Under the pieces are notes generated by a model, which did not search any database, was not told the origin of the DNA, and saw only the letters and a list, made by a program, of their open reading frames with translations. A stretch of 64,000 nucleotides of DNA, from positions 1 to 64,000 of the forward strand of contig NZ_VSMB01000019.1 of NCBI RefSeq assembly GCF_009805705.1, in the 5' to 3' direction. Position 1 is the stretch's first letter, and each line of letters starts with the position of its first letter. The DNA comes from Ruania rhizosphaerae. GTDB taxonomy: Bacteria > Actinomycetota > Actinomycetes > Actinomycetales > Beutenbergiaceae. Made by a program: the position numbers and the translations under genes. Shown piece by piece: positions 8,369-52,369 of the stretch.

Positions 8369-9409
8369 TCAGGGCCCCGGGGTCGAATCCCTCAGCACGA
8401 CTGCGCCATCGAGCTGCTCCACGACAGCGTCACCGTCGGAGTCCAGCGCCATCCGGGTGGCGCGCACGCCCGCGTCCACGAGCGGGACCGCCACCGTACT
8501 CAGCCCGGGCGTGACGTCCCGGAGGGTGACGATGTCGTCGAAACCGGCGATCCCGACGTCCTCACCCACCCGCATGCCGGCATCCCGGGTGGCGGCCATC
8601 GCGCCCATCGCCATCACGTCGTTGACGGCGAAGACGGCAAGCGAGCCGAGACCGTCGCGACGCCGATGATCGGCCTGCCGAGAGATCAGCTCGGTCATGG
8701 CCTCATAGCCGCCGTCCCGGGTGAACTCGGAGGCGACCACGCGATCGGCGGGTACCTCCACGCCGAGGCCGGCCAACGCCGTCGTGAATCCTTCGGTGCG
8801 CTCGCGGGCAGTCAGGTGCGGTGCGGGCCCGGTGAGTACCGCGAACTCCCGGTAGCCGCGCCCGTGCAGCGCGCGCGCCAGCTCCGCTGCCCCGCCGACG
8901 TTGTCGATCGCGACGGTGTGCACATCCAGGATCGGCTGACCGATGACGGCGACCGTGCCGCCGCGAGAGCGGTAGGTGGCGAGGGCGGCTCGTAGGCGCT
9001 CGTTGGCCTCCTCGGCGTCCTGGCGGCCACCCGCGATGACGATGGCGCGGGCTCGCTGGCTCTGCAGCACGTCGATGAACGCCAGCTCCTTCTCCGGACG
9101 ATGCCCGGTGCTGGCGAGCGTGACCATCAGCCCGGCGGCCTCCGCCGCCGTCGTGACACCTGCGGCGATGGAGGAGAAGTACGGGTCGGCGATGTCGTGG
9201 ACGATCAGGCCCAAGGTGGACGTGCGACCGCGCGCCATCGCCTGGGCGTTGGCATCGGGGGAGTACCCGAGCCGGGCTGCGGCGGCGAGCACACGTTGCT
9301 GCAGGTCGGGGCGCACGGTCCGGTTGGCGCTGCCATTGATGGCGCGTGACGCCGTCGCCAAGGAGACGCCCGCCTCGCGGGCCACATCGCTGAGGGTCAC
9401 GGAGGCCAT
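8369..9409 (-). CDS. LacI family transcriptional regulator
   Basis: 346 residues from the ATG at 9409; an in-frame GTG two codons earlier is possible. The N-terminal helix-turn-helix (VTLSDVAREAGVSLATASRAING) and hinge helix are intact, followed by a periplasmic-binding-protein-like effector domain with the usual FAVNDVMAMGAM and VGIAGFDDI motifs. It lies downstream of the polysaccharide lyase gene on the same strand and may regulate sugar genes nearby. A dyad directly upstream of the start suggests autoregulation. Ligand unknown. Confidence 0.88.
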   Translation of the reverse strand: MASVTLSDVAREAGVSLATASRAINGSANRTVRPDLQQRVLAAAARLGYSPDANAQAMARGRTSTLGLIVHDIADPYFSSIAAGVTTAAEAAGLMVTLASTGHRPEKELAFIDVLQSQRARAIVIAGGRQDAEEANERLRAALATYRSRGGTVAVIGQPILDVHTVAIDNVGGAAELARALHGRGYREFAVLTGPAPHLTARERTEGFTTALAGLGVEVPADRVVASEFTRDGGYEAMTELISRQADHRRRDGLGSLAVFAVNDVMAMGAMAATRDAGMRVGEDVGIAGFDDIVTLRDVTPGLSTVAVPLVDAGVRATRMALDSDGDAVVEQLDGAVVLRDSTPGP

Positions 9410-9417
9410 GGGCACAT

Positions 9418-9431
9418 GGTAAGCGCTCTCA
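9418..9431 (-). promoter_or_regulatory. Putative LacI operator, autoregulatory
   Basis: TGAGAGCGCTTACC on the minus strand is a GCGC-centred imperfect dyad of the common LacI type, 9 nt before the regulator's ATG. No other binding site is nearby, so autoregulation is the simplest reading. Confidence 0.45.
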
Positions 9432-9444
9432 GGGCGTCAGGGCT

Positions 9445-9597: not shown

Positions 9598-12500
9598 CTA
9601 CCCTTCGACCGGCTCCCACGGCCCGTGCGGATCGCCGGGTTGGTCGTTCCTGCTCCACCACTGCGCCTGATAGCGCTGGTCGTCGTGGGCAGCGACGTCG
9701 CCTTCGGTGAAGATCCGCGAGGGCGTCCAGGCCGTGCCGCCGGCGGTGGTGGCCATCTCCTGCCACGGGCCGTACGGGTCACCCGGCTCCTGGCCCTGCG
9801 TCCACCAGGACGCTGACCAGACGGCGTCCTCGTAGGTCACGCGGTCGCCCTCGGTGTACGTGGAATCCTCCTCCCAGGGAGCGAGCTCGGCGCCGTTGTC
9901 CGACCCGGGAGGTTCGCACCCGCCCGAGACGTTCACGTTCTCGAACGAGGCCTCCGAATTTGCATACAGCCCGACGCCGCCGCTGCGGACCAGGGTGTCG
10001 CGTGCCTCGAGGATGGTCTCACCGTTCAGGGTCACGGTGATGTGGTCGCCGTGGATCGTGGCACCCAGCTCGACCGGCCCGTCGAGGCTGTGGGACACCG
10101 ACGCCCCACCGATCTTCTCCGGTCCGGACCGATGCGCCTCCCGGATGATGCTCGCGTACTGGGTATTACGGCTGGTCTTGCCGATGTGGATGCGGTACCC
10201 GTAGGAGTTCCCGTTGTCTCGCAACGAGATCCCTGCGGACCCGGTGTCACCGAGCGTCATCGTGGTGGTCACGGCGTAGTCGCACGTGTCGGAGAACCGT
10301 GACGGCAAGGCCGAGGTCAGCAAGGCGTGGGCACGGTCGCCGGTGGGCGTCATCTGCAGTTGACCCGCGTCGACCGAGATGTCACCGCGGACGGACTGCC
10401 AGTGATCCTCGTCGAGCGCCTCAGCGATCGTGATGTTGTCGAACAGCGTCGCTTGCCGATGCGTGAAGGCACCGACCCCACCTGTCGGCAATCGGCCGTC
10501 ATCGACCGAGACCGACGTATCGCCCACGGTCGCGACCAGGTTCCGTCCTACCGCTGAGACGGACAGGGTGTGCGCGGCGTCCGGGTCGATGGCGAGGTCG
10601 GCCTCGTCGAGAACTGTCAGTTCGCCGTTGTAGATCTTCAGCAGCTGCAGCGACACACCCTCGCGCGTCTTGACCACGTTCGCCCGGTAATAGTTGCGGG
10701 AGTCGTTGTAGCGGAACGCGAGACCGGTCCGTGCCGTGGCGTAGCTGCGATCCCCGGGCACGATCTCTGCGGAGATGTGGACGTCCGCAGGTACGTCCTG
10801 CTGGATCGCGAACGACTGGCGGTTCGCGGTGGACGTCTGCGCCAGTTGCGTTCCGTCGGGGCCGCCGAGCTCCCAGCTGTCACCCGGCCGCGGCCGCCAG
10901 CCCTGGAGCGAACCGTCCGCGAAGTCGTAGGCGGTGCTCTCCAGGCTGCTCTCGTCGAAGTCGTCCTCGAACAGCAGCGCCGGCGTGAACGACTCTGCGA
11001 GGGAGATCGTGATCACCTCGCCGGCGCGAGTGAACTCCGTCAGCTCACCGTTGACCAGCACCTCGTCGGCGGAGGCAGCACTGAGCTGCAGCGTCCCGGT
11101 GAAGGGGTCCGAGAGCGAGACCTCGGCGGTGTCGCCCTCGAGTCGGACGCTGAGGTCGGAGACGGTTCCGGAGGCGGTGGCGATCGTGGCGCCGTCGTCG
11201 GTCAGTGATGATCCTGAGGTCAGCGCGTACCGGGTGAGGGTGCCAGCGTCGTCACGCTCGAGGTAGGCCGTCTCGCCGTCGGTGGTGGCACTGCCGAACG
11301 ACCGCGACGACGGTACCTCCTCACGGGAGAGGTAGAACTGGCCGGTGGCTCCTTCGAGGTCGATCTCCAGGGCGCTCGCCACGGAGTGGTCCACCCCGGG
11401 CATCTCGATGCGGTCCGCCGTCACCGAGGGGGCCGGTCCGGCCTCCCCGGGAACGACGACGGTGTCCAGCCCGGTCGCTCCCTCGGTCGTCCAGTCGTAG
11501 GACAGGAAGTCGATGTCCGTGCGGACCTCGTCTCCGACGCGCGCTGCACCGTCCTCGTGAACCGTCGGCGCGACATCAGTGCTGCCAGCACCGACGGGCA
11601 CGAGCTGTACACCGGAGACGGGGTCAGCTCCGGGAACCGTGTCGAAGCCGACCGTGGCGACGTCCGTCTCCGGGGCGACCGAGACCGGATCGCCGGGGAA
11701 GTGCCAGAGCTGGCGGTAGTCATGGGTCTCGGTGTCACCGGTGAGGGCGTCGGAGACGATCCAGAATCCGGGCTTGACGAAGTAGACGACGCGGTCATGG
11801 ATGACCGGCCGGTACCCATGGGCCTCGCCGCGGTAGACGTCGAGGCCCTCGTTCGAGCGCCACAGGTACGAGGCGCGCGTGATGCCGGCTTCCTGCGGCT
11901 GGCCGTCCACCTCGATCGTGTTGTGCGCCTCAGTCTCACGGCGCATCCAGCTGTTGTGTCCGGTCGAGGTGTAGTCACCGGACCCGGGATCGACGATCAG
12001 CGGGCGGCCGTAGGCGGCCATGATGAGGCTGAGGTCGTCCGGGTGCCGGTGGGAGTAGGTGTAGGAGGTGTTCTGGTTGTTGATGTGCATGTACCGGGCG
12101 TCGGCGTCCCAGCCCGAGCGCTGCACGGCGAAACTGATCGGGTAGATCGTCGAGCCCAGAGTGGGAGCGGTGCCCTCGGCGCGATCGGAGGCGACCCAGC
12201 TGAAGTCAGACCACGAGTTGCGCTCGCCGCTCGCGGCGATGGTGCGCTGCCCTGCATCGACATTACCCGCGTCCCCGAAGAGCGGTGCCTCGAGATTGGG
12301 CATGCGGGTGGCGAACAGGGAATCGGCGATCCAGTCAGTGGCCCGGATGATCGAGGCAGGAAGCGTGCGGTCATTGAGGTCGGCCACCTCGATGGTCGCA
12401 TTGACCAGGTCCGCGGCGTAGGCCTGGTAGTTGACCGTGGGTTCGCGGTACACGCTGTCACCCTTGAACTGCGCACCGTGCTGGGTCAGAAACGACTCGA

Positions 12501-13338
12501 AGGACCGGACGGCGAAGTGCTCCTGCTCGTAGGCGTCAGCCAGTTCCGGCAGGTACACCGAGGCGAGGTAGATCGAGCGCGCCATCGACAGGTACCAGTT
12601 GTTTCCCCGGTGTGCGGGTAGTGCGTCGACGAGGTGATCGGTGGTGGCGGCGGTACCCATCAGGTAGTCCACCAGCTCGCCCGCGTCGATCGTCGGCTCG
12701 GTGCGGAACACGGAGAAGGAGGTGATCAACTGCGACAGACGCTTCGCGCCCGCGAGGTTCTTGTTTCGCGGCCAGTCCGGGTTGTCGGCGAAGAAGTCGA
12801 GCGTGATCTCCATCCACGCCTGGGCGTACTCGGCGCGAACCTGTGGATTCTGCTCGCTCATGTAGGCCCGCGTCAGCGTCGGCATGAAGGCGAAATCGGA
12901 CATCCATACCTGACCTTTGCCCGGTTCCTCCTCCGTGCCATCCCAGGTGTCCTGCCAGTCGACGTCGATGCGCTGGGCTTCCTCGTCGTAGAAGTCGCGC
13001 GTGACGCCGTCGAAGCGGAAGATTCCCTCCGCCAGCTCGTCCGCACTCGCTTGGCCGACACCTGCTCGATTGGGTTCGGGAAGAACCACGTCCGTCCGGT
13101 CGGCGTAGAACTGTTGCAACTCCTCCGCAGCGCCCTCCGCGTCGCCATCGGCGAGCTCGGCGGCCACATCGGCCAGCTCTGGACGTGTGAGGTCGAGAAG
13201 CTCGGCAAGGTCCGAGGTCTCGTCCGCTGCAGCAGGCGCCGTCGCCAAGCCGGTGGCCACGACGGCCATCGCGGCTCCCGCGGCAACTCCTGCGCGTATG
13301 CGCGATCCGAGTCGTTTCTGGGGAATGCTCCGTTGCAT
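9598..13338 (-). CDS. Secreted heparinase II/III-type polysaccharide lyase with carbohydrate-binding modules
   Basis: 1246 residues; the ATG at 13338 has AAGGAGG 8 nt upstream. A signal peptide (about residues 1-38, ending APAAA) is followed by an alpha/alpha-toroid lyase domain with the GNNW motif near residue 235, and a heparinase II/III C-terminal beta domain with SHRHPDDLS (near 430), a DPGSGDY loop and TEAHNTIEVDG, which hold the likely catalytic His/Tyr region. After it come two concanavalin/laminin-G-like domains (about 795-970 and 975-1145) and two tandem type-5/12 chitin-binding modules at the end, each with Y-x-x-GD and a WW pair followed by PGDP-GPW. The substrate is an acidic or amino-sugar polysaccharide, not defined. 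No sorting signal is visible, so the protein is released and held by its modules. Confidence 0.85.
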   Translation of the reverse strand: MQRSIPQKRLGSRIRAGVAAGAAMAVVATGLATAPAAADETSDLAELLDLTRPELADVAAELADGDAEGAAEELQQFYADRTDVVLPEPNRAGVGQASADELAEGIFRFDGVTRDFYDEEAQRIDVDWQDTWDGTEEEPGKGQVWMSDFAFMPTLTRAYMSEQNPQVRAEYAQAWMEITLDFFADNPDWPRNKNLAGAKRLSQLITSFSVFRTEPTIDAGELVDYLMGTAATTDHLVDALPAHRGNNWYLSMARSIYLASVYLPELADAYEQEHFAVRSFESFLTQHGAQFKGDSVYREPTVNYQAYAADLVNATIEVADLNDRTLPASIIRATDWIADSLFATRMPNLEAPLFGDAGNVDAGQRTIAASGERNSWSDFSWVASDRAEGTAPTLGSTIYPISFAVQRSGWDADARYMHINNQNTSYTYSHRHPDDLSLIMAAYGRPLIVDPGSGDYTSTGHNSWMRRETEAHNTIEVDGQPQEAGITRASYLWRSNEGLDVYRGEAHGYRPVIHDRVVYFVKPGFWIVSDALTGDTETHDYRQLWHFPGDPVSVAPETDVATVGFDTVPGADPVSGVQLVPVGAGSTDVAPTVHEDGAARVGDEVRTDIDFLSYDWTTEGATGLDTVVVPGEAGPAPSVTADRIEMPGVDHSVASALEIDLEGATGQFYLSREEVPSSRSFGSATTDGETAYLERDDAGTLTRYALTSGSSLTDDGATIATASGTVSDLSVRLEGDTAEVSLSDPFTGTLQLSAASADEVLVNGELTEFTRAGEVITISLAESFTPALLFEDDFDESSLESTAYDFADGSLQGWRPRPGDSWELGGPDGTQLAQTSTANRQSFAIQQDVPADVHISAEIVPGDRSYATARTGLAFRYNDSRNYYRANVVKTREGVSLQLLKIYNGELTVLDEADLAIDPDAAHTLSVSAVGRNLVATVGDTSVSVDDGRLPTGGVGAFTHRQATLFDNITIAEALDEDHWQSVRGDISVDAGQLQMTPTGDRAHALLTSALPSRFSDTCDYAVTTTMTLGDTGSAGISLRDNGNSYGYRIHIGKTSRNTQYASIIREAHRSGPEKIGGASVSHSLDGPVELGATIHGDHITVTLNGETILEARDTLVRSGGVGLYANSEASFENVNVSGGCEPPGSDNGAELAPWEEDSTYTEGDRVTYEDAVWSASWWTQGQEPGDPYGPWQEMATTAGGTAWTPSRIFTEGDVAAHDDQRYQAQWWSRNDQPGDPHGPWEPVEG

Positions 13339-13494
13339 GTGGAGTGCCTCCTTGGGTTGTTCTGTCCCGGCTGGGACGGGATTCACGCACTGTGCAGGGC
13401 AACGTCCTGTCCCGATGTGTCGGCAGACGGTACGCAGCAGCCCCGGGTGGAGGTCGGCTGTGACGTGGACGACCGCGGGGAATCAGGAGGACAG

Positions 13495-13504
13495 GAAGCG
13501 CTTC
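13495..13504. promoter_or_regulatory. Palindrome in the lyase leader
   Basis: GAAGCGCTTC is a perfect 10-bp LacI-type palindrome inside the 200-nt leader of the lyase transcript. It differs from the 18-bp operators and could serve a second regulator. Confidence 0.45.
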
Positions 13505-13534
13505 GATGCCTGCCCTGCTGTCTTTCAAGCGAAG

Positions 13535-13552
13535 TGACGTGTCGTTGCGTCA
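13535..13552. promoter_or_regulatory. 18-bp LacI operator, lyase promoter
   Basis: TGACGTGTCGTTGCGTCA has TGACG/CGTCA arms around a central CG. The same 18 bases occur in reverse at 14696-14713. It covers the predicted lyase start point just downstream of the -10 box. Confidence 0.7.
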
Positions 13553-13580
13553 CACTAGAGACGATGGCCTCCCGGGTCAA
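13552..13580 (-). promoter_or_regulatory. Promoter of the polysaccharide lyase gene
   Basis: On the minus strand TTGACC (13580-13575), a 17-bp spacer and TAGTGT (13557-13552). Transcription would start near 13545, inside the operator, giving a leader of about 200 nt. Confidence 0.6.
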
Positions 13581-13614
13581 GAGCGAAATCGTGATTCCCC
13601 AGTGATCGGCCAGC

Positions 13615-13620
13615 TACGAT
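13615..13620 (+). promoter_or_regulatory. -10 box, leaderless LacI start
   Basis: TACGAT lies 7 nt before the ATG at 13628; no ribosome-binding site is present. Confidence 0.5.
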
Positions 13621-13627
13621 CGATCGA

Positions 13628-14626
13628 ATGGCGACCCAGAAAGAAATCGCGCGTCTTGCCGGTGTCTCGGTCTCGTCCGTCTCGGCTGTGCTCAACGGCA
13701 CGACCCACACGCGGATGAGCCATGCGACGCGGGAGCGCATTGAGGCAGCGATCGCCGAGGCGGGATATGTGCCCAACGATGCGGCGCGAGCGTTGCGGCG
13801 TCAGCAGGCCGGCACGATCGCGGTGGTGGTGGAGAAGCTCGAGAATCCGGCGTACAAGGAGTTGTTCCACGGCATCTACGAGGCCGCCGAGGAACGAGGG
13901 TGGGCGGTGGTGCTGGGTGACGTCGTCTGGATGCGCTCGGGGAGCCACTTTCTCGCTCGGCTGCTGGGGCGAGGATCGATCGATGCGATCGTGCTCCGGC
14001 AGGATCGGTTGATCGACGAGGAAGTGCTGGCGCACCTGCGGGCGCGGCCGACTCCGGTGGTGCTGGTGGAGCGCCAGGCCGATCCGCACGACTCGTGGAT
14101 CGCCGTGGACGACCTGGCGGCGGGACGGATGGCGGCCGAGCACCTCATCGAGCTCGGTCACCGCGATATCGCCTTCGTGGGCGGTGAGGGTCAGCCTTCG
14201 GCGGCGCGCTGCGAGGGCTATGCCACCGCGATGAGAAGCGCGGGTCTGGTGTCCTCCTCGCCCGTGGTCACCGGCTTCGGTCCCGAGTCGGGAGCGCGCG
14301 GGCTGGATGAGCTCCGGGCACGTGGAGTGCTCCCGACGGCGGTGGTGGTGGCCAATGTGATGTCAGCCGTCGGCCTGCTCGCCGCCGCAGCGGATGCCGG
14401 TATCGACGTTCCTGGCCGGTTCTCGGTCGTCGGGATTCATGATGCTGATATCGCCGACGTGGTCCGACCCTCGCTGACCACGGTCAAGCTGCCGATGCGT
14501 GCGCTCGGAGTGCGGGCGGTCGAGCAGGTGTCGGCCCTGCTCGCAGGAACTCCGACCGAGCTGGGGGTGTTCACCGACCCGCCGCCGGAGGTGATCGTTC
14601 GATCCAGCACCGCGCCGCCTGAGTGA
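13628..14626 (+). CDS. LacI family regulator of the lyase/ABC region
   Basis: 332 residues. Helix-turn-helix and hinge (MATQKEIARLAGVSVSSVSA through ARALRRQQAG) are intact, followed by a full effector domain with HLIELGHRDIAFVGG and VVGIHDADIADVVRPSLTTV. It is placed between the divergent lyase gene and the ABC transporter operon. The 18-bp operator core found on both sides (13535-13552, 14696-14713, and a diverged third at 14643-14660) makes it the obvious candidate for their repressor, with an oligosaccharide from the lyase as inducer. The inference rests on position and site sharing only. Confidence 0.88.
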   Translation: MATQKEIARLAGVSVSSVSAVLNGTTHTRMSHATRERIEAAIAEAGYVPNDAARALRRQQAGTIAVVVEKLENPAYKELFHGIYEAAEERGWAVVLGDVVWMRSGSHFLARLLGRGSIDAIVLRQDRLIDEEVLAHLRARPTPVVLVERQADPHDSWIAVDDLAAGRMAAEHLIELGHRDIAFVGGEGQPSAARCEGYATAMRSAGLVSSSPVVTGFGPESGARGLDELRARGVLPTAVVVANVMSAVGLLAAAADAGIDVPGRFSVVGIHDADIADVVRPSLTTVKLPMRALGVRAVEQVSALLAGTPTELGVFTDPPPEVIVRSSTAPPE

Positions 14627-14642
14627 GGTCGTGATCAACTTG

Positions 14643-14660
14643 TGACACAACGTCGCGTCT
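14643..14660 (+). promoter_or_regulatory. Upstream operator of the ABC operon (diverged)
   Basis: TGACACAACGTCGCGTCT matches the 14696-14713 site at 14 of 18 positions in the same orientation. It precedes the -35 box; its centre is 53 bp from that of the downstream site, about five helical turns, which would allow looping. Confidence 0.5.
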
Positions 14661-14667
14661 CCCCGTC

Positions 14668-14697
14668 TTGACCGTGTCGACGCTGGTCATCTACGTT
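14668..14697 (+). promoter_or_regulatory. Promoter of the ABC transporter operon
   Basis: TTGACC (14668-14673), 18-bp spacer, TACGTT (14692-14697). The -10 box runs into the downstream operator. Confidence 0.55.
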
Positions 14698-14713
14698 GAC
14701 GCAACGACACGTC
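14696..14713 (+). promoter_or_regulatory. 18-bp LacI operator, ABC operon
   Basis: TGACGCAACGACACGTCA is the exact reverse complement of the operator core in the lyase promoter and overlaps the -10 box and start point. Confidence 0.7.
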
Positions 14714-14731
14714 AACGAGGAGATGTCCGCC

Positions 14732-16693
14732 ATGACTCACAACCGCCCCCTCTTCCTGCCGGACCGGCGAACGTTCATTGCCGGCGTCGGCGCCACCGGC
14801 CTCGCCGCCGTCGTGGGCTGCAGTGCCGACGGCGAGAACGACGCCATGCCCCAGGCCGACAAGGGGCTCGAATCGCCTGACCTGGCAGAACTTGTCGAGT
14901 CGGGCGAGTTGCCACCGGTCGAGGAGCGCCTCCCGGCGACCCCGCTCGTCGTCGAGCCGGTCGAGAGCACCGGCGCCTACGGCGGCCGCCTGAACACCGT
15001 TGTCCTCGGCCAGACGGACCTCATCTACGTCAAGATGACGATGGGGTACGAGGGGTTGATGCGGTGGACCCCGGACTGGTCGGAGACGATCCCGAACGTC
15101 GCCGAGTCCGTCGAGACCTCCGACGACGGCACGACCTTCACCTTCCACCTGCGTGAGGGTATGCGGTGGTCGGACGGAGAACCGTTCACCGCCGAGGACG
15201 TCGCGTTCGCCGCCAACGATGTGGCGCTCAACGAGGAGTTCGTGGGTGCGGTGGAGTCGGCCTTCCTGTCCAACGCCGACGGGAGTGCGACCGTCGAAGC
15301 GGTGGACGAGCTGACTGTGCGCTTCGTCTTCCCCTCCCCGAATCCGATGTTCCTGCAAGAGATATCAACGCTGGCCAACGCCGAGGTTCTCACCGGGCAT
15401 CCGAAGCACTACATGTCGCAGTTCCACCTGGCGCACAACGACGACGCAGAGGCGGAAGCGGAGTCTGCCGGCTTCGAGCACTGGGTCGACTACTACGTCG
15501 ATCGCTCCGAGTGGTGGGACAACCCCGAGATCCCCACGGTGAACGGGTGGGTCGTCACCCGGACTCTCGACGAGGGCGGTGAGGTTCTGGCTGAGCGCAA
15601 CCCCTACTACTGGAAGGTCGACCCCGACGGCAGCCAGCTGCCGTACCTGAACACCATCCGGCACGAGCTGGTCAGCGACGAGGAAGTCATGCTCGTCAAG
15701 GCGACCGAGGGTGAGCTCGACATCGTCACGCGCCACATCAACAGTCTCGGCAACAAGCCGGTGCTCGCCGATGGGCGCGAGGGTGGCGGATACGAGTTCA
15801 TCGATCTGCAGACGAGCTTCATGAACGAGATGGTGATCTCGCTCAACCTCAACCACCAGGACCCGGTGAAGCGGGAGATCTTCCAGAACAAGGACTTCCG
15901 CATCGCCCTCTCCCATGCGATCAACCGCGATGAGCTGAACACGGCCGTGTTCCAGGACCAGGGCGAGGCCTGGCAGGCAGCACCCAACGCCGACTCCGTC
16001 TACTACGACGAGGAGATGGCGAAGCAGTACACCGAATTCGACACCGATCTGGCCAACCAGGTGCTCGACGACGCCGGGTACGCCGAGCGCGACTCCGACG
16101 GCTACCGCCTGGGCCCCGACGGTGAGCGCATCCGCATCACCGTCCTGATCGCGACGCCCGGGCCCACGCCCTACATGGTCGACGCCATGGAGCTCGTCGC
16201 CGGGTACTGGAATGAGGTCGGCATCGACACGCGCGCCGAACCGGTGGACCGGTCACTGTTCCAGGAGCGGACCGTCGCGAGCGAGCACGACGCGGGGGTG
16301 TGGAACGGCACCGGCGGATTCCGCGACGAGGTGCTCGCGCCGCTGTATTACTTGCCCTCGCGCACGACGATCGTCGCGTGGGCCGTCGAATGGGCTGGAT
16401 ACTTCGTCAGCCGCGGTGAGGAGGGCGACACCCCGCCGGAGGCTCCGCTGCGTCAGATGGAGCTGTACTGGGAGATGGAGTCCGAGCCGGACGATGCCCG
16501 GCGCGAGGAGCTCTTCCGGGAGATCCTGCAGATCGCCAAGGATGAGTTCTACACGATCGGCACGCTGCGGATCCCGCTCGGATACGGCACCGTGGCCAAT
16601 CGACTGAAGAACGTGCCGGAGATGTTCCCGACGGCCTTCCGGTATGGCGACCCCGCGCCGACGAACGTGTCCCAGTACTTCATCGGGGGCTGA
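14732..16693 (+). CDS. ABC transporter substrate-binding lipoprotein (SBP_bac_5 family)
   Basis: 653 residues from the ATG at 14732, chosen because GAGGAG lies about 9 nt upstream. The N-terminus has a twin-arginine DRRTFI motif and a lipobox with Cys30 (LAAVVGC), so it is a lipid-anchored, possibly Tat-exported protein. The body is family 5 of extracellular solute-binding proteins (peptides, nickel, oligosaccharides), with the typical FTFHLREGMRWSDGEPFTAEDV segment. It is larger than most dipeptide-binding members, as in homologues linked to plant or animal polysaccharide use. First gene of the operon; an intercistronic hairpin follows. Confidence 0.88.
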   Translation: MTHNRPLFLPDRRTFIAGVGATGLAAVVGCSADGENDAMPQADKGLESPDLAELVESGELPPVEERLPATPLVVEPVESTGAYGGRLNTVVLGQTDLIYVKMTMGYEGLMRWTPDWSETIPNVAESVETSDDGTTFTFHLREGMRWSDGEPFTAEDVAFAANDVALNEEFVGAVESAFLSNADGSATVEAVDELTVRFVFPSPNPMFLQEISTLANAEVLTGHPKHYMSQFHLAHNDDAEAEAESAGFEHWVDYYVDRSEWWDNPEIPTVNGWVVTRTLDEGGEVLAERNPYYWKVDPDGSQLPYLNTIRHELVSDEEVMLVKATEGELDIVTRHINSLGNKPVLADGREGGGYEFIDLQTSFMNEMVISLNLNHQDPVKREIFQNKDFRIALSHAINRDELNTAVFQDQGEAWQAAPNADSVYYDEEMAKQYTEFDTDLANQVLDDAGYAERDSDGYRLGPDGERIRITVLIATPGPTPYMVDAMELVAGYWNEVGIDTRAEPVDRSLFQERTVASEHDAGVWNGTGGFRDEVLAPLYYLPSRTTIVAWAVEWAGYFVSRGEEGDTPPEAPLRQMELYWEMESEPDDARREELFREILQIAKDEFYTIGTLRIPLGYGTVANRLKNVPEMFPTAFRYGDPAPTNVSQYFIGG

Positions 16694-16776: not shown

Positions 16777-17709
16777 ATGGTGCAGTTCCTGATCCGGCGG
16801 ATCCTCTACATGATCCCCACACTGTTCCTGATCTCGATCCTCGTGTTCGTGATCATCCAGCTGCCGCCGGGTGACTACCTGAGCACTGTGATCGTGCAGA
16901 TGGAGGAGAGTGGTCAGTCGGTCGACCAGGCGCAGATCGACTACTTGCGAGAGCGGTACGGGCTCGATCAACCGATCTGGGTGCAGTACTGGCAGTGGAT
17001 CAGCGGCATCATCTTCCACCTCGACTTCGGCCACTCGTTCGAGTGGGGCCGTGAGGTCTCCGCCCTGATCGCGGACCGGCTGCCGCTCACGATCGGCATC
17101 GCCCTCATCACCATCGTGTTCACCTGGGCGATGGCCCTTCCGATCGGTGTCTACTCGGCCGTCAAGCAGTACTCGGCCGGTGACTACGTCTTCACGACTA
17201 TCGGCTTCCTCGGCGTCGCGACTCCGAACTTCCTGTTGGCCCTGGTCATGATGTGGGCCGCGGCCGGCTTGGGGCTGAGCGTCGGTGGTGCCTCGCCCGC
17301 GATGATCGTGGTCGCCGTGGTGGTGCTCGGCACGGCCGGCACTGCCGGTCTCATCCGCGTGATGCGAGCCAACCTGCTGGACGAGCTGAAGAAGCCGTAC
17401 GTGGTGGCGGCCAGAGCCCGGGGCATTCCGCAGCGCAAGCGCCTCATCAAGTATCCCGTGCGCGTGGCACTCAACCCGTTCGTCTCCTCGATCGGGTGGC
17501 TGCTTCCCACGTTGATCTCCGGCGAGGTCATCGTCTCCACCGTGATGAACCTCCACACCACCGGACCACTGCTGCTGCAGTCGCTGCGCGGTCAGGACAT
17601 GTACCTGGCGGGATCGATCATCCTGATCTCCGCCGTGCTCACGGTCGTCGGAACGCTGCTGTCGGACCTCGCGTTGGCGTGGCTCGATCCGCGAATCCGG
17701 ATCAACTGA
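16777..17709 (+). CDS. ABC transporter permease, DppB/OppB type
   Basis: 310 residues, starting with the typical MVQFLIRRILYMIPTLFLIS first membrane helix. Six helices in the BPD_transp_1 fold follow. The cytoplasmic coupling loop is conserved: a VVAARARGIPQRKRLIKYPVR stretch with the EAA-like A-x-x-x-G. An extra loop with WISGIIFHLDFGHSF is normal for this subfamily. Acts with the next permease and the fused ATPase to import the solute delivered by the lipoprotein. The gap to the next gene is 13 bp. Confidence 0.88.
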   Translation: MVQFLIRRILYMIPTLFLISILVFVIIQLPPGDYLSTVIVQMEESGQSVDQAQIDYLRERYGLDQPIWVQYWQWISGIIFHLDFGHSFEWGREVSALIADRLPLTIGIALITIVFTWAMALPIGVYSAVKQYSAGDYVFTTIGFLGVATPNFLLALVMMWAAAGLGLSVGGASPAMIVVAVVVLGTAGTAGLIRVMRANLLDELKKPYVVAARARGIPQRKRLIKYPVRVALNPFVSSIGWLLPTLISGEVIVSTVMNLHTTGPLLLQSLRGQDMYLAGSIILISAVLTVVGTLLSDLALAWLDPRIRIN

Positions 17710-17722
17710 GGGAGCGAGACAG

Positions 17723-18874
17723 ATGTCATCACAGAGCACCTCGATCAAACCGCTCCCGAGCGAGCCGGACGATCAGAGCGCAGACTCCTACGCCGCAGCC
17801 TCGCGCTGGCGCCTGGTGTGGCGGCGATTCCGCAGACACAAGCTCGCCATGGTGGGCCTGGTCGTCACGATCTTGGTCTACGTCATCGCGGTCTTCGGGG
17901 AGGTGATCGCTCCGTACAGCAACAGCCACCTCAACGCCGACTATGCCTACGCGCCGCCGCAGCAACTCCAGATCGTCGACACCTCGGGCGATTCCTGGGA
18001 CTGGGGCCTGCATGTGCACGGCTACACGATGGAGCGCGACCCCGAGACCCTCGAGCAGGAGTTCACGACTGACCCGGACAACCAGGTGCCGGTGGGGTTC
18101 TTCGTGCAGGGTGAGCAGTACGAGCTGCTCGGCCTGATCCCCTGGGATCGCCACCTGATCGGCCCGGTCGCCAGCGACACTCCGATGTACCTGCTCGGAG
18201 CCGACCAACTCGGACGCGATCAGCTCTCCCGCATCATCCACGGCACCCGGATCTCGATGTCGGTCGGCCTCGTCGGCGTCGGGATGGGCTTCGTGCTCGG
18301 CATCCTGCTCGGCGGCATCTCGGGATACTTCGGCGGCCGGGTCGACACGATCATCCAACGTGCCGTCGAGCTGTTCATGTCACTGCCCACGCTGCCGCTC
18401 TGGCTCGGTCTGGCGGCCGCCGTCCCCCGGGAGTGGGGCAGTGTGGAGAGATACTTCGCGATCACGCTCGTGCTGTCGCTGGTCGCGTGGACCGGTCTGG
18501 CCAGAGACGTGCGCGGCAGGTTCCTCGCGTTGCGCGAGGAGGACTTCGTGACGTCGGCGCGCCTGGACGGGACAGGAGAGCCCCGGATCATCTTCGGCCA
18601 CATCCTGCCCTCCTTCACCAGCCACCTGATCGCGACGCTGACACTGGCGATTCCGTCGATGATCCTCGCCGAGACCGCACTGTCGTTCCTCGGCCTCGGG
18701 CTGCAACCACCGACCGTGTCGTGGGGTGTGCTCTTGCAGGAGGCCCAGAACATCCGCGTGATCTCGACGGCTCCGTGGCTCCTGCTGCCGGGTGCCGCCG
18801 TCGTGATCGCCGTCCTCGCCATGAACTTTCTCGGCGACGGTCTGCGCGATGCCGCCGACCCCTACAAGCACTGA
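17723..18874 (+). CDS. ABC transporter permease, DppC/OppC type
   Basis: 383 residues. A short cytoplasmic N-terminus with RWRLVWRRFRRHKLAMVGLV is the standard OppC_N start. A long extracytoplasmic insert (about residues 60-150, before the ADQLGRDQLSRI motif) is larger than in dipeptide permeases and is seen in homologues for oligosaccharides. The coupling loop reads DFVTSARLDGTGEPRIIFGH. Five or six membrane helices. Forms a heterodimer with the previous permease. Confidence 0.88.
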   Translation: MSSQSTSIKPLPSEPDDQSADSYAAASRWRLVWRRFRRHKLAMVGLVVTILVYVIAVFGEVIAPYSNSHLNADYAYAPPQQLQIVDTSGDSWDWGLHVHGYTMERDPETLEQEFTTDPDNQVPVGFFVQGEQYELLGLIPWDRHLIGPVASDTPMYLLGADQLGRDQLSRIIHGTRISMSVGLVGVGMGFVLGILLGGISGYFGGRVDTIIQRAVELFMSLPTLPLWLGLAAAVPREWGSVERYFAITLVLSLVAWTGLARDVRGRFLALREEDFVTSARLDGTGEPRIIFGHILPSFTSHLIATLTLAIPSMILAETALSFLGLGLQPPTVSWGVLLQEAQNIRVISTAPWLLLPGAAVVIAVLAMNFLGDGLRDAADPYKH

Positions 18875-18892: not shown

Positions 18893-21118
18893 ATGACCTC
18901 CACCACCCGAGCGGACCAGCCCGCCGTATCCGAGGGTGCCCGTGTCGCAGGAGAACCGGGCGGCGAGCGCCAGGCCGTCCTGACCATCCGCGACCTCAAG
19001 ACGCAGTATCGAACCGACGAGGGCACTGTGAAGGCGGTTGACGGCGTCGATCTCACCGCCTATCGCGGCCAGACCACCTGCGTGGTCGGGGAGTCCGGCT
19101 GCGGCAAGTCCGTGACGGCGCGGTCGATCCTGCAGTTGATCGACCACCCGGGAAAGATCACCGGCGGGCGCATCATGTGGCAGCCGGACCCCGCAACCGA
19201 GGCCGTCGACCTGACCCAATTGGACGAGGACGGTGAGCGGCTGCGCCGTGTGCGCGGCGGCGAGATCGGCATGGTCTTCCAGGAGCCGATGGCCTCCCTG
19301 TCGCCGATGTACACGGTCGGCTCGCATCTGATGGAGACCATTCAGCTGCACTCCGATCTCAATGAGGCCGATGCGAAAGACCGGGCCATCTATGAGCTCA
19401 AGCGGGTGGGGATCCCGCAGCCGGAGCGGCGCTTCGACAACTATCCGTTCCAGCTCTCCGGTGGCATGTGCCAGCGCGTGATGATTGCGCTTGCGCTCTC
19501 GTGCGACCCCTCGCTGCTGATCGCCGATGAACCGACCACGGCGCTCGACGTCACCACCCAGGCACGCATCCTCGACCTCCTCCACGAGCTCCAGGCCGAG
19601 ACCGGGATGTCGATGCTGTTCATCACCCACGATCTCGGGGTCGTGGCGGAGATCGCGGACGACGTCTCGGTGATGTATCTCGGCAAGGTCGTCGAGAGGG
19701 CAGGCGTGGTCGATCTGTTCGAGAACCCGCAGCATCCCTACACCCAAGCCCTGCTGGAGTCGATCCCGAGCCGGGACCACGACGGTCACAGGCTCGACCG
19801 GCTCCGTGCCATCAGCGGTACGGTGCCGCACCCTGCCCAACGTCCTCCCGGGTGCTCCTTCCACCCGCGCTGTCCGCACGCGATGGCGGGGACCTGCGAT
19901 GTCGACGAGCCCCCGGTGCTCGATCTCGGTGATGACCGGATCGCACCTTGTCACCTGCACAACCCGGAGACCAGCGGAGGCGGTCGGCCGCTGCCGATGC
20001 TGCCCGTCCCGCCTGTTCCGGAAGCCCGAGAAACCCCAGAAGTCCGGGAACAAACCCCCATGCCCGCGAGCAAGCAGCCGATGCTGAGTGTGCGGGACCT
20101 GACGGTGGAGTTCCCGATCCGCAAGGGCTTCTGGAAGCGCACGGTCGGGCACGTCGGTGCCGTCAGCAGCGTCGATCTCGATATCTATCCCGGTGAGACC
20201 CTCGGGCTCGTCGGTGAGTCCGGGTGTGGCAAGACCACACTCGGCCGCAGCATCGTCCGCGCGCTGGCGCCCACGCGAGGATCGATCGCCTACCGCGCAC
20301 CAGGATCGGACAGCGAGGTCGACCTCGCCGATCTCAGCGGACGCGAGCTGCGGCCCTACCGCAGCGATGTCCGCATGATCTTCCAGGACCCCTTCACCTC
20401 GCTCAACCCGCGCAAGACCCTGCTGCAACTGATCGGCGAACCGCTGCAGCGGGCCGGTTCCCGCAACCGTCCACCGGCTGGAAAGGACGTCGCCGACAGC
20501 ACCATCCAGGACCAGGTGGCCGACATGCTCGCCAAGGTCGGCCTGCGCCCCGAGTACATGCGCCGTTACCCACACGCCTTCTCGGGTGGCCAGCGCCAGC
20601 GCGTCAACATCGCGCGCGCACTCATCACCCGGCCCAGCCTGGTCGTCGCCGACGAAGCAGTCTCCGCCCTCGACGTCTCCGTGCGCGCACAGATCCTGAA
20701 CCTCCTCAAGGACCTGCAGGAGGAGTTCCAGCTGACGTATCTGTTCATCTCCCACGACCTGTCCGTCGTCGAGCATGTCTGCGATCGCGTCGCCGTCATG
20801 TATCTCGGCCAGGTGGTCGAGCAGGCAGACACCGGATCGCTCTTCGATCAGCCGCAGCACCCCTACACCGAGGCGTTGCTGTCAGCCGTGCCGCAGCCCG
20901 ATCCGCACCAACGAGGCGGCGGCAGACGCATCCGCCTACCGGACGACCTGCCCGACCCGACCAACCCGCCGCCCGGGTGCCGTTTCCATACCCGCTGCCG
21001 GTTCGCCGTCGAAGGGCTCTGCGACCGGGGCGACGCGCCGCCGGTGCTCCAGGAGGAGACGGGGCACGCCGTCGCATGCCTGCGCGCCGAGGAGATCGAA
21101 CTGCAGGGCCGCCACTGA
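18893..21118 (+). CDS. Fused ABC transporter ATPase (OppD-OppF type)
   Basis: 741 residues carrying two complete nucleotide-binding domains. NBD1 has GESGCGKS, the LSGGMCQRV signature and [15 protein letters not shown]2 has [17 protein letters not shown] and [11 protein letters not shown]. Each is followed by the oligopeptide/dipeptide transporter C-terminal region with a Cys-rich motif ([26 protein letters not shown]). The two are joined by a proline-rich linker near residue 365-395. In most genomes these are two genes (OppD, OppF); a fusion fixes 1:1 stoichiometry. Third component after both permeases. Confidence 0.9.
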
Positions 21119-21147: not shown

Positions 21148-22416
21148 ATGACGATCCAGGACCCTGGACCGGGCCGTACCGTGCTGCTGCGCGCAGGATG
21201 GCAGGTCGACAATGTGGGCGATGTCGCTCACGTGCCCGGAACGATCCGCGCCCTGCAGGAGTACGGCGGGGCCGAGGTGATCGTCTGGGCCCTGGACTTC
21301 CGTGCTCGGGAGAAGGAGCTACTCGCCGCGATCTACCCGCAGGTGCAGATCGTCGAGGGGGCGGTGTCCGACAATGGAGTGCCCACGGATCCGGACGTGC
21401 TCGCCGCGTGGGAGCGTGCGGACGTGCTGGTCCACGGCCCTGGTGCATCGCCCATGCTGGCGGGTGAGATCGACGCCTGGGTCGCGCACACCGGCAAGCC
21501 CTACGGCTACTTCGGCGTCACAGCGGACCCGGTCTGCCCGCCGACGTGGGCGACCCTCGCCGAGATCGACCAGATGATCGATTCGCTCCTCGAGGACTAC
21601 ATGAGCGAGGACATGCGGACGCGCCTGGAAGGTGCCGAGTTCTTCTACACCCGCGACTCGCTCAGCCTGAAATACCTGCGGAGTCAGAGGCTGCACGGGG
21701 TGAGGCCGGAGTTCGGCCCGGATGCGACATTCGCGTTCACGTATCGCGATGACGCCAAGGCGGAGGCGTTCCTCGAACAGTTCGACCTCACCGAACGGCA
21801 GTTCGGGTGTTTCGTCCCGCGGCTGCGGTACGCGCCGTATCCGCAGATCAAGGGCCGCCACCCCACGTCGGAGCAGCAGCGCCGCGCGGCCCTCAACGAG
21901 CTGACCTGGCGCGAGGATCTGGATGCGTTCGCGGCCGTCGTGACCGAGTGGGTGCGTTCGACCGATACCCCCGCAGTGGTCGTACCCGAGATGAGCTACG
22001 TGCACGAGTTCGCGCTCGCGCACCTGCCCGAACGTCTCCCCGACGATGTCCGCGACCGCGTGCACATCCTGGATCGCTACTGGCCGTTGGAGGAGATGTC
22101 CGGCGTCTACGCCCGCGCCTCGGTCGTGGTGAGCATGGATTGCCACTCACCGATCATCGCGGCCGCGCAGGGAACGCCGACCTTCTACCTGCGCCTGCCG
22201 ACCGAGACCGCCAAGGGGCACATGTATGCCGACCTGGGCGATCCGGAGATGGTGGTCGAGATCAACGATGCCCCGCGTGCGGCACAGCTCGCGATCGCGG
22301 CACACCGCGACTGGGACGCGGCGTCTCGTCGCGCGACCGCACTCGTGGAGACCGCCAACGCGCACCTACGGCAGATGGGGGCCGCCGTCGCCGCGCGTAC
22401 CCCTGCCCTCACCTGA
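21148..22416 (+). CDS. Polysaccharide pyruvyl transferase family protein
   Basis: 422 residues from the ATG at 21148, preceded by an AGAGGAAGAG region; an ATG at 21118 overlapping the ATPase stop (TGATG) is the alternative. The N-terminus VLLRAGWQVDNVGDVAHVPG shows the GN-x-GD-like start of the family, followed by VLVHGPG, FFYTRDSLSLKYL and a C-terminal VVSMDCHSPIIAAAQGTPTFYL stretch that matches the acceptor-binding GT-B-like half. Members usually transfer pyruvate ketals to sugars of exopolysaccharides. Here the gene closes an uptake operon, which fits poorly with a biosynthetic role; a derivative acting on imported sugar is possible. Confidence 0.75.
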   Translation: MTIQDPGPGRTVLLRAGWQVDNVGDVAHVPGTIRALQEYGGAEVIVWALDFRAREKELLAAIYPQVQIVEGAVSDNGVPTDPDVLAAWERADVLVHGPGASPMLAGEIDAWVAHTGKPYGYFGVTADPVCPPTWATLAEIDQMIDSLLEDYMSEDMRTRLEGAEFFYTRDSLSLKYLRSQRLHGVRPEFGPDATFAFTYRDDAKAEAFLEQFDLTERQFGCFVPRLRYAPYPQIKGRHPTSEQQRRAALNELTWREDLDAFAAVVTEWVRSTDTPAVVVPEMSYVHEFALAHLPERLPDDVRDRVHILDRYWPLEEMSGVYARASVVVSMDCHSPIIAAAQGTPTFYLRLPTETAKGHMYADLGDPEMVVEINDAPRAAQLAIAAHRDWDAASRRATALVETANAHLRQMGAAVAARTPALT

Positions 22417-51370: not shown

Positions 51371-52176
51371 CCTGGTGGGAGCAACTCGGCCGCACCTTCG
51401 CCGAGACCGTCTTCTCGGGGCCGCTGCTCGCGGCAGCCCCGGTGGCGCTGCTGGCTGGGTTCATCTCGTTCGCTTCGCCGTGCGTGCTGCCGCTGGTTCC
51501 GGGCTATCTCGGCTACGTCGGGGGAATGGTGGGCGCCGATGCCGGTGGGGCGGGCCGTACGCCGGCCGCTCGCGGCAGCACGCAGGCGACCCGCCGTGCC
51601 CGCATGCGGCTCGTCCTCGGCGTGCTCGGATTCATCGCCGGTTTCACGGCGGTGTTCACCGCCACCACGATGGCGCTGGCCGGGATCGGTGTGGCGCTGG
51701 TGCGCTGGCAGGACGAGCTGTTGCGCGGCCTCGGTGTGGTGGTGATCGTCATGGGGCTGGCCTTCATCGGTGCGTTGCCGTTCTTGCAGCGCGAGCGCCG
51801 ACTGCACTTCTCCCCGCGTGCCGGGGTGTGGGGTGCGCCGCTGCTCGGTGTGGTCTTCGGCATCGGTTGGGCGCCCTGTATCGGTCCGACGCTCGCCGCG
51901 GTGCAGAGTCTGGCGATCGGTGGTGCCGATCCGATCCGCGCGCTCGTGTTGGTGCTGCTGTACTGCCTGGGCCTGGGGCTGCCGTTCGTGCTCGTGGCGC
52001 TGGGGTTGCGCTCCTCGGAGCGGATGATGGTCTTCCTGCGCCGGCACCGGCTCGCGATGATGCGGATCGGCGGTGGTCTCCTGGTGCTGCTGGGGCTGGC
52101 GATGGTGACGGGACTGTGGAGCCAGCTGGCGTCGTGGCTGCAGGGGTACGTCGCAGACTTCGAGGTGTTGGTGTGA
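51367..52176 (+). CDS. ccdA: Cytochrome c biogenesis protein CcdA
   Basis: 269 residues from a GTG overlapping the previous stop. Six membrane helices in the DsbD/CcdA fold with redox cysteines in SFASPCVLPLVPGY and GIGWAPCIGPTL. Carries reducing equivalents from cytoplasmic thioredoxin to the TlpA-like lipoprotein. The C-terminus and stop codon lie inside the first copy of a 90-bp tandem repeat. Confidence 0.93.
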   Translation: MTWWEQLGRTFAETVFSGPLLAAAPVALLAGFISFASPCVLPLVPGYLGYVGGMVGADAGGAGRTPAARGSTQATRRARMRLVLGVLGFIAGFTAVFTATTMALAGIGVALVRWQDELLRGLGVVVIVMGLAFIGALPFLQRERRLHFSPRAGVWGAPLLGVVFGIGWAPCIGPTLAAVQSLAIGGADPIRALVLVLLYCLGLGLPFVLVALGLRSSERMMVFLRRHRLAMMRIGGGLLVLLGLAMVTGLWSQLASWLQGYVADFEVLV

Positions 52177-52369
52177 GCGCGAGGAGGCCTCGCGGAGGTA
52201 CGGCGAGGGACGAGGTGTGCCGGAGCAGGGCACCGCAGTGCTTGCACGAAGGGGAGCATGGTGTGAGCGCGAGGAGGCCTCGCGGAGGTACGGCGAGGGA
52301 CGAGGTGTGCCGGAGCAGGGCACCGCAGTGCTTGCACGAAGGGGAGCATGGTGTGAGCGCGAGGAGGCC
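52171..52369 (+). repeat. 90-bp tandem direct repeat (2.2 copies)
   Basis: 52171-52260 and 52261-52350 are identical over 90 bp, followed by 19 bp of a third copy. Each unit carries GCGAGGAGGCC, the same as the resB ribosome-binding site. The first unit includes the ccdA stop. Unit length is a multiple of three. Confidence 0.95.

Follow-up and report, generated by a model that had tools for sequence, protein, structure and literature searches.

In the window, the whole 64,000-nucleotide stretch of Ruania rhizosphaerae DNA analyzed here, one 18-bp sequence stands 5′ of a polysaccharide-lyase gene and again 5′ of an ABC-transporter operon, with a LacI-family gene between the two copies. Is this 18-mer the operator of the LacI-family protein, and does it join enzyme and transporter in one regulon? 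Judged from comparisons of related genomes, the 18-mer is very probably the operator of the protein encoded at 13628-14626, which would switch lyase and transporter together. An earlier note on this DNA had proposed a lyase/ABC regulon of the adjoining LacI protein, and the comparative data support that proposal. The relevant features of the window are as follows.

8369-9415: second LacI gene (LacI2)
9598..13338, minus strand: predicted heparinase II/III-fold polysaccharide lyase, 1246 aa (Pfam Hepar_II_III_N/C, two CBM_5_12 stretches)
13535..13552, minus strand: candidate 18-bp operator at the lyase promoter, TGACGCAACGACACGTCA in the lyase direction (TGACGTGTCGTTGCGTCA on the plus strand)
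13552..13557, minus strand: predicted lyase -10 box TAGTGT, whose final T is also the first T of the operator
13575..13580, minus strand: predicted lyase -35 box TTGACC, with a 17-bp spacer to the -10 box
13615..13620, plus strand: predicted -10 box TACGAT of lacI, 7 nt before the ATG
13628..14626, plus strand: LacI-family repressor, 332 aa (Pfam LacI and Peripla_BP_3; recognition helix GVSVSSVSAVLNGT)
14643..14660, plus strand: putative auxiliary operator TGACACAACGTCGCGTCT, 14/18, same orientation as the second exact copy
14668..14673, plus strand: predicted ABC-operon -35 box TTGACC, with an 18-bp spacer to the -10 box
14692..14697, plus strand: predicted ABC-operon -10 box TACGTT, last T shared with the operator
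14697..14714, plus strand: candidate 18-bp operator of the ABC operon, TGACGCAACGACACGTCA in the gene direction, exact in relative G005 and in Haloactinopolyspora alba
14732..16693, plus strand: family 5 solute-binding protein (Pfam SBP_bac_5; nearest solved chain SPH1118)
16777..17709, plus strand: OppB-type permease (Pfam)
17723..18874, plus strand: OppC-type permease (Pfam)
18893..21118, plus strand: fused OppD/OppF-type double ATPase (two ABC_tran stretches)
21181..22416, plus strand: polysaccharide pyruvyl transferase-like protein (Pfam PS_pyruv_trans), last gene of the conserved block

Copies of the site in the window and the genome

Exact search bore out that the two principal copies agree at 18/18 positions and that a third, diverged copy lies at 14643-14660. 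The copy at 13535-13552 and the reversal of its partner were as the earlier note had described, but the partner occupies 14697-14714 rather than 14696-14713, a placement one base early. TGACG/CGTCA arms and a central CG are present in the site, again as described; by hand count 12/18 of its positions are palindromic, and the three inner bases of one side do not mirror those of the other. According to the available text of PMC4052901, LacI-family sites are as a rule even palindromes with CG at the center, and all three window sites, each 18 nt long with a central CG, have this form and fall within its length range (16-22 nt). In the sites from relatives, the central CG cannot be tested independently because the family search pattern itself contains CG.

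Exact copies of TGACGTGTCGTTGCGTCA occur twice in the 4.43 Mb genome, both times in the window. With up to three mismatches allowed, the window holds two matches (mean of 0.15 in shuffled sequence, with at least two in 1/100 shuffles) and the genome holds four places, namely the two exact copies, one place with two mismatches, and one with three, the latter two both within open frames. The reversed pattern, used as a control at the same threshold, likewise gave two forward and two reverse matches in the genome; only exactness is therefore notable in the organism's own genome, and the mismatched matches are background. A relaxed core, TGACGNNNCGNNNCGTCA, searched with one mismatch, matched 30 places in the genome versus 11 in the control. 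We also scored sites with a weight matrix trained on 14 site strings from relatives, which included the exact 18-mer and the letters of the third copy. The exact copies scored 28.7 and the third copy 21.3, values that are not independent because the training strings share their letters; the two-mismatch place scored 18.7, and the 28 other relaxed-core places fell far below the window sites, the best of them at 17.1. Among 30 weak places (these 28 plus the two mismatched ones), the five that were inspected (L003, L004, L022, L023, and L026; three of the 28 and both mismatched places) all lie inside an open frame, L026 apparently at the start of its frame.

Promoters at the site

Both exact window sites overlay predicted promoters, in the same orientation relative to the gene served, and the predicted promoter boxes abut both of them, in keeping with the claim that the sites flank the LacI gene and overlie the lyase and ABC promoters. 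This geometry recurs in relatives. At 16/17 start-proximal sites, the site is preceded by TTGA(N)2-N17/18-TANNNT, whose -10 box ends on the operator's first T or 1-2 nt before it; at random positions in the same loci, the same rule was satisfied in 6/20,000 cases. The exception is the pyruvyl-transferase promoter of G021, which has no -10 box by this rule. Three pattern sites outside the 17 (in G017, in G020, and at G013:C1:199359) fail the promoter rule, as do all eight auxiliary or upstream sites tried against it. The site matched in G017 and G020 lies over a TTGACG -35 box, and by eye TACGGT or TACCGT follows 18 bp on and then a diverged site, an arrangement suggesting that the geometry has been kept and the start-proximal copy has decayed. 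Because the -10 box abuts or overlaps the operator, the predicted transcription start falls inside the operator, where a repressor would sit; in the window, transcription would begin near 13545 for the lyase and near 14704 for the ABC operon.

The window has its auxiliary site at -54 relative to the main ABC operator; at -53, the same letters are present in G005 and a similar site in H. alba. Second sites at other loci lie at distances of 28, 29, 55, 63, and 65 bp. A second site is not universal, as none with two or fewer core mismatches was found within 150 bp at the lyase promoters scanned, those of R. rhizosphaerae, G005 (the first of its two copies), H. alba, G003, G017, G020, and G023 (L034). 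The ABC site is 18-35 bp and the lyase site about 197 bp from the start codons used; for the lyase we chose the start at 13338, and the list of open reading frames gives a GTG at 13386. More than 75% of LacI-family sites are placed at -140 to -30 in the available text of PMC4052901, a tendency rather than a requirement, and the lyase site falls outside this range.

The lacI gene itself has TANNAT 6-7 nt 5′ of its ATG in 11/11 orthologs, a spacing so short that the lacI transcript looks leaderless (13615-13628). Autoregulation of lacI by occlusion is unsupported in the window, where the predicted -10 box is 62 bp from the site. A weak site with four mismatches in G013 shares its last T with the lacI -10 box.

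The site, its probable regulator, and its targets in related genomes

The protein encoded at 13628-14626 matches PF00356 and PF13377 above cut-off and thus combines a LacI helix-turn-helix with a periplasmic-binding-like sensor domain. We searched for its orthologs and for the site in 24 genomes of the family and in a wider sample of 99 relatives, which included 75 genomes of the same order outside the family. Orthologs 62-91% identical are present in eight other family genomes, G023 having two, and H. alba carries one that is 82% identical. A recognition helix of the form [GE]VS[VAI]S[ASV]VSAV[LVI]NGT is common to 11 orthologs. Paralogs that are 45% identical and have a similar helix, GVSPSVVSAVLHG, lack such a site within 1.5 kb on either side, and the helix alone therefore does not predict the site.

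The pattern TGACGYRWCGWYRCGTCA was found in 8/24 family genomes, all of them among the nine with a LacI ortholog, and in none of the 15 without one (Fisher P of 1.2e-5, uncorrected for kinship). The ninth ortholog-bearing genome, G010, has a diverged site, TGACGTAACGAGAGGTCA, that departs from the core and escapes the strict pattern. Among the 99 relatives, the site occurs in 8/9 genomes with the ortholog versus 2/90 without it, the two extra-family matches lying within an open frame in G028 and apparently between genes in G048. As the genomes are related, these counts are not independent. In addition, the lyase is accompanied by the LacI ortholog in 8/8 family genomes, and presence and absence consequently cannot separate a site that follows LacI from one that follows the lyase.

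The 20 distinct family sites precede, in 19 cases, a heparinase-fold lyase, an ABC operon, or a pyruvyl-transferase operon; the sole misfit, at G013:C1:199359, stands before a gene that has no Pfam match. The earlier note had named numerous matches at unrelated genes as grounds for rejecting the regulon; given this tally and the two exact copies in the genome, such a spread was not found. The gene behind the G013 misfit (L039:1-1424) has, by eye, a twin-arginine-like start. Lyase copies in the family (E ≤ 1e-60) stand behind a site in 9/9 cases, eight of them directly; the ninth, in G013, is the last gene of an operon behind two sites, the operon being judged from gene order. Two of these copies stand apart from the LacI ortholog, one on contig 2 of G005 and one about 24 kb away in G021. 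The exact lyase-side 18-mer also lies 5′ of lyases in G005 (two), G003, G017, G020, and H. alba. G017 and G020 have a further site 5′ of DUF4962-type lyase-like genes that do not adjoin the LacI ortholog; over the part available, these genes share 93-94% identity with a Hepar_II_III_C gene in the second cluster of G023, and this gene matches DUF4962 weakly. In G003, G013, and G021, the site heads a block with a pyruvyl-transferase-like gene and a different ABC class (SBP_bac_1/8 by Pfam in G003 and G021, and by layout in G013). Among 30 family homologs of the binding protein, only that of R. rhizosphaerae and its G005 ortholog stand directly behind a family-pattern site. Sites at orthologous targets that co-occur with the regulator are what a local LacI-family regulator would leave.

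Could the 18-mer belong to some other regulator encoded elsewhere, for instance another LacI-family protein, with the neighboring LacI incidental? The genome has 84-85 LacI-type candidates at a loose first look, and LacI2 is encoded nearby. We regard this explanation as improbable, given that the site is absent from 15/15 family genomes without an ortholog of the protein at 13628. LacI2, moreover, is present in 20/24 family genomes, the strict site being missing from 12 of these; a different palindrome, TGAGAGCGCTTACC, lies just 5′ of the LacI2 gene at 9417-9434, letter-for-letter the same in G005. As LacI2 is widespread and mostly without the lyase, the block of lyase, first LacI gene, and ABC operon looks inserted beside an old neighbor. 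LacI2 may act on the lyase as an additional level of control. Another palindrome, GAAGCGCTTC, lies in the lyase leader at 13493-13506, about 50 bp past the operator start, and two lyase promoters of the same genus have AGCGCT at this position (3/11 examined).

An alternative that keeps the proposed repression would make the 18-mer partly an element of initially transcribed RNA or promoter escape, which would fix its asymmetric middle and its orientation. All 11 exact sites indeed read TGACGCAACGACACGTCA in the gene direction, and a protein that reads a pure palindrome would not require a fixed orientation. Orthologous sites in G013, G021, and G023 nevertheless have different middles, some of them symmetric, and the fixed overlap with the -10 box accounts for part of the orientation less exotically, making such an element very unlikely. 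A chance repeat or a recent duplication of a promoter segment without regulatory role is scarcely credible. Other 18-mers do recur in the window, 101 in all, 31 of the 40 listed belonging to a repeat near 52170-52290, and recurrence is therefore no evidence by itself; the evidence is conservation across species. All 55 pairs of the 11 exact sites agree at every one of the 18 bases, across genera and in H. alba, but the flanks are mostly unrelated: the upstream 60 bp share 10-34 bases in ungapped comparison, and downstream flanks agree at up to 23/40 positions. The strongest flank conservation, 39/40 between R. rhizosphaerae and G005, is 3′ of the ABC operator, near the coding start. The recurring 18-mers also revealed a tandem repeat at 52169-52290 with a period of about 90 bp.

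Enzyme, transporter, and a proposed mechanism

The lyase contains both the N- and C-terminal Hepar_II_III domains, as does the PL12 enzyme heparinase III (4MMH), and Asn240, Tyr294, and His424 of the latter, whose catalytic roles are described in the available text of PMC12088678, align with N246, Y304, and H430 of the lyase in a hand-read alignment (chain index and residue number differ by a constant 24). The overall similarity to 4MMH is weak (62.9 bits), and the window lyase adds CBM5/12 stretches and a 3keto-disac_hyd-type domain. Assignment as a heparin-sulfate lyase was rejected, as scores of 72 and 67 bits stand against NCBIfam HepC cut-offs of 700 and 600. Judged from the fold, the substrate is likely an acidic oligosaccharide.

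The best solved match to the binding protein is SPH1118, a pectin-oligosaccharide binder of Sphingomonas sp. A1 (403 bits over about 600 residues). Seven ligand contacts of SPH1118 are given in the available text of PMC9314435 (Asn53, Arg57, Glu216, Arg438, Arg466, Arg496, and Trp594). In a hand-read comparison, Arg466 is kept and Glu216 and Trp594 are replaced by Asp and Phe, whereas Ile, Met, Thr, and Leu occupy the positions of Asn53, Arg57, Arg438, and Arg496. With 1/7 of these contacts identical and two conservative, we dropped pectin, which the SPH1118 match had suggested, as the substrate. Relatives of the PS_pyruv_trans protein are found near the site in G005, G003, G013, G021, and H. 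alba; a pyruvyl transferase-like gene thus accompanies the regulon in six genomes, with either transporter class, although the locus looks catabolic.

These features fit a simple scheme. A LacI dimer would bind the quasi-palindrome TGACGnnnCGnnnCGTCA. In both window promoters, the first operator base is also the final base of the -10 box; the operator would thus cover the transcription start, and binding would thereby block initiation. At the ABC promoter, the weaker site at -54, roughly five helical turns away, may assist by cooperative binding or by forming a small loop. By analogy with the family, oligosaccharides released by the lyase would enter the cell, a breakdown product would bind the LacI sensor domain, and inducer-bound LacI would release both promoters, raising enzyme and uptake system together.

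In its 18-nt even palindrome with central CG, its local regulator beside the targets, and its use of more than one site 5′ of an operon, the system resembles the LacI-family sugar regulons of RegPrecise covered in the available text of PMC4052901, but it differs in its targets, a heparinase-fold lyase and an Opp-type transporter. The main recognition-code group has a TVSR motif in the available text of PMC2978694; the LacI proteins here instead have S/A/V-VSA, with TGACG/CGTCA arms. A literature search, with RegPrecise itself and supplementary tables outside its scope, found, among the papers listed, no named regulon with this motif and no paper on the motif or the locus.

The whole block recurs in H. 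alba (L019:5898-18815) with proteins 79-91% identical, the lyase at 65%, and exact operators, which suggests transfer between distant lineages. Tentatively, the LacI ortholog, lyase, transporter, and pyruvyl-transferase-like protein might form an as yet unnamed system that degrades a single acidic and perhaps pyruvylated polysaccharide, a cassette that could have spread among Ruaniaceae and to Haloactinopolyspora and whose portable promoter-operator module would recruit different lyase types and two transporter classes. The sequence comparisons give good support to a local regulon of the LacI family whose promoter-operator module is conserved, an ordinary kind of bacterial sugar regulon with a textbook mechanism. 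It gives a candidate operator, regulator, and gene set for a polysaccharide pathway in little-studied actinobacteria, and the promoter-operator module would make the regulon readable in related genomes by pattern search.
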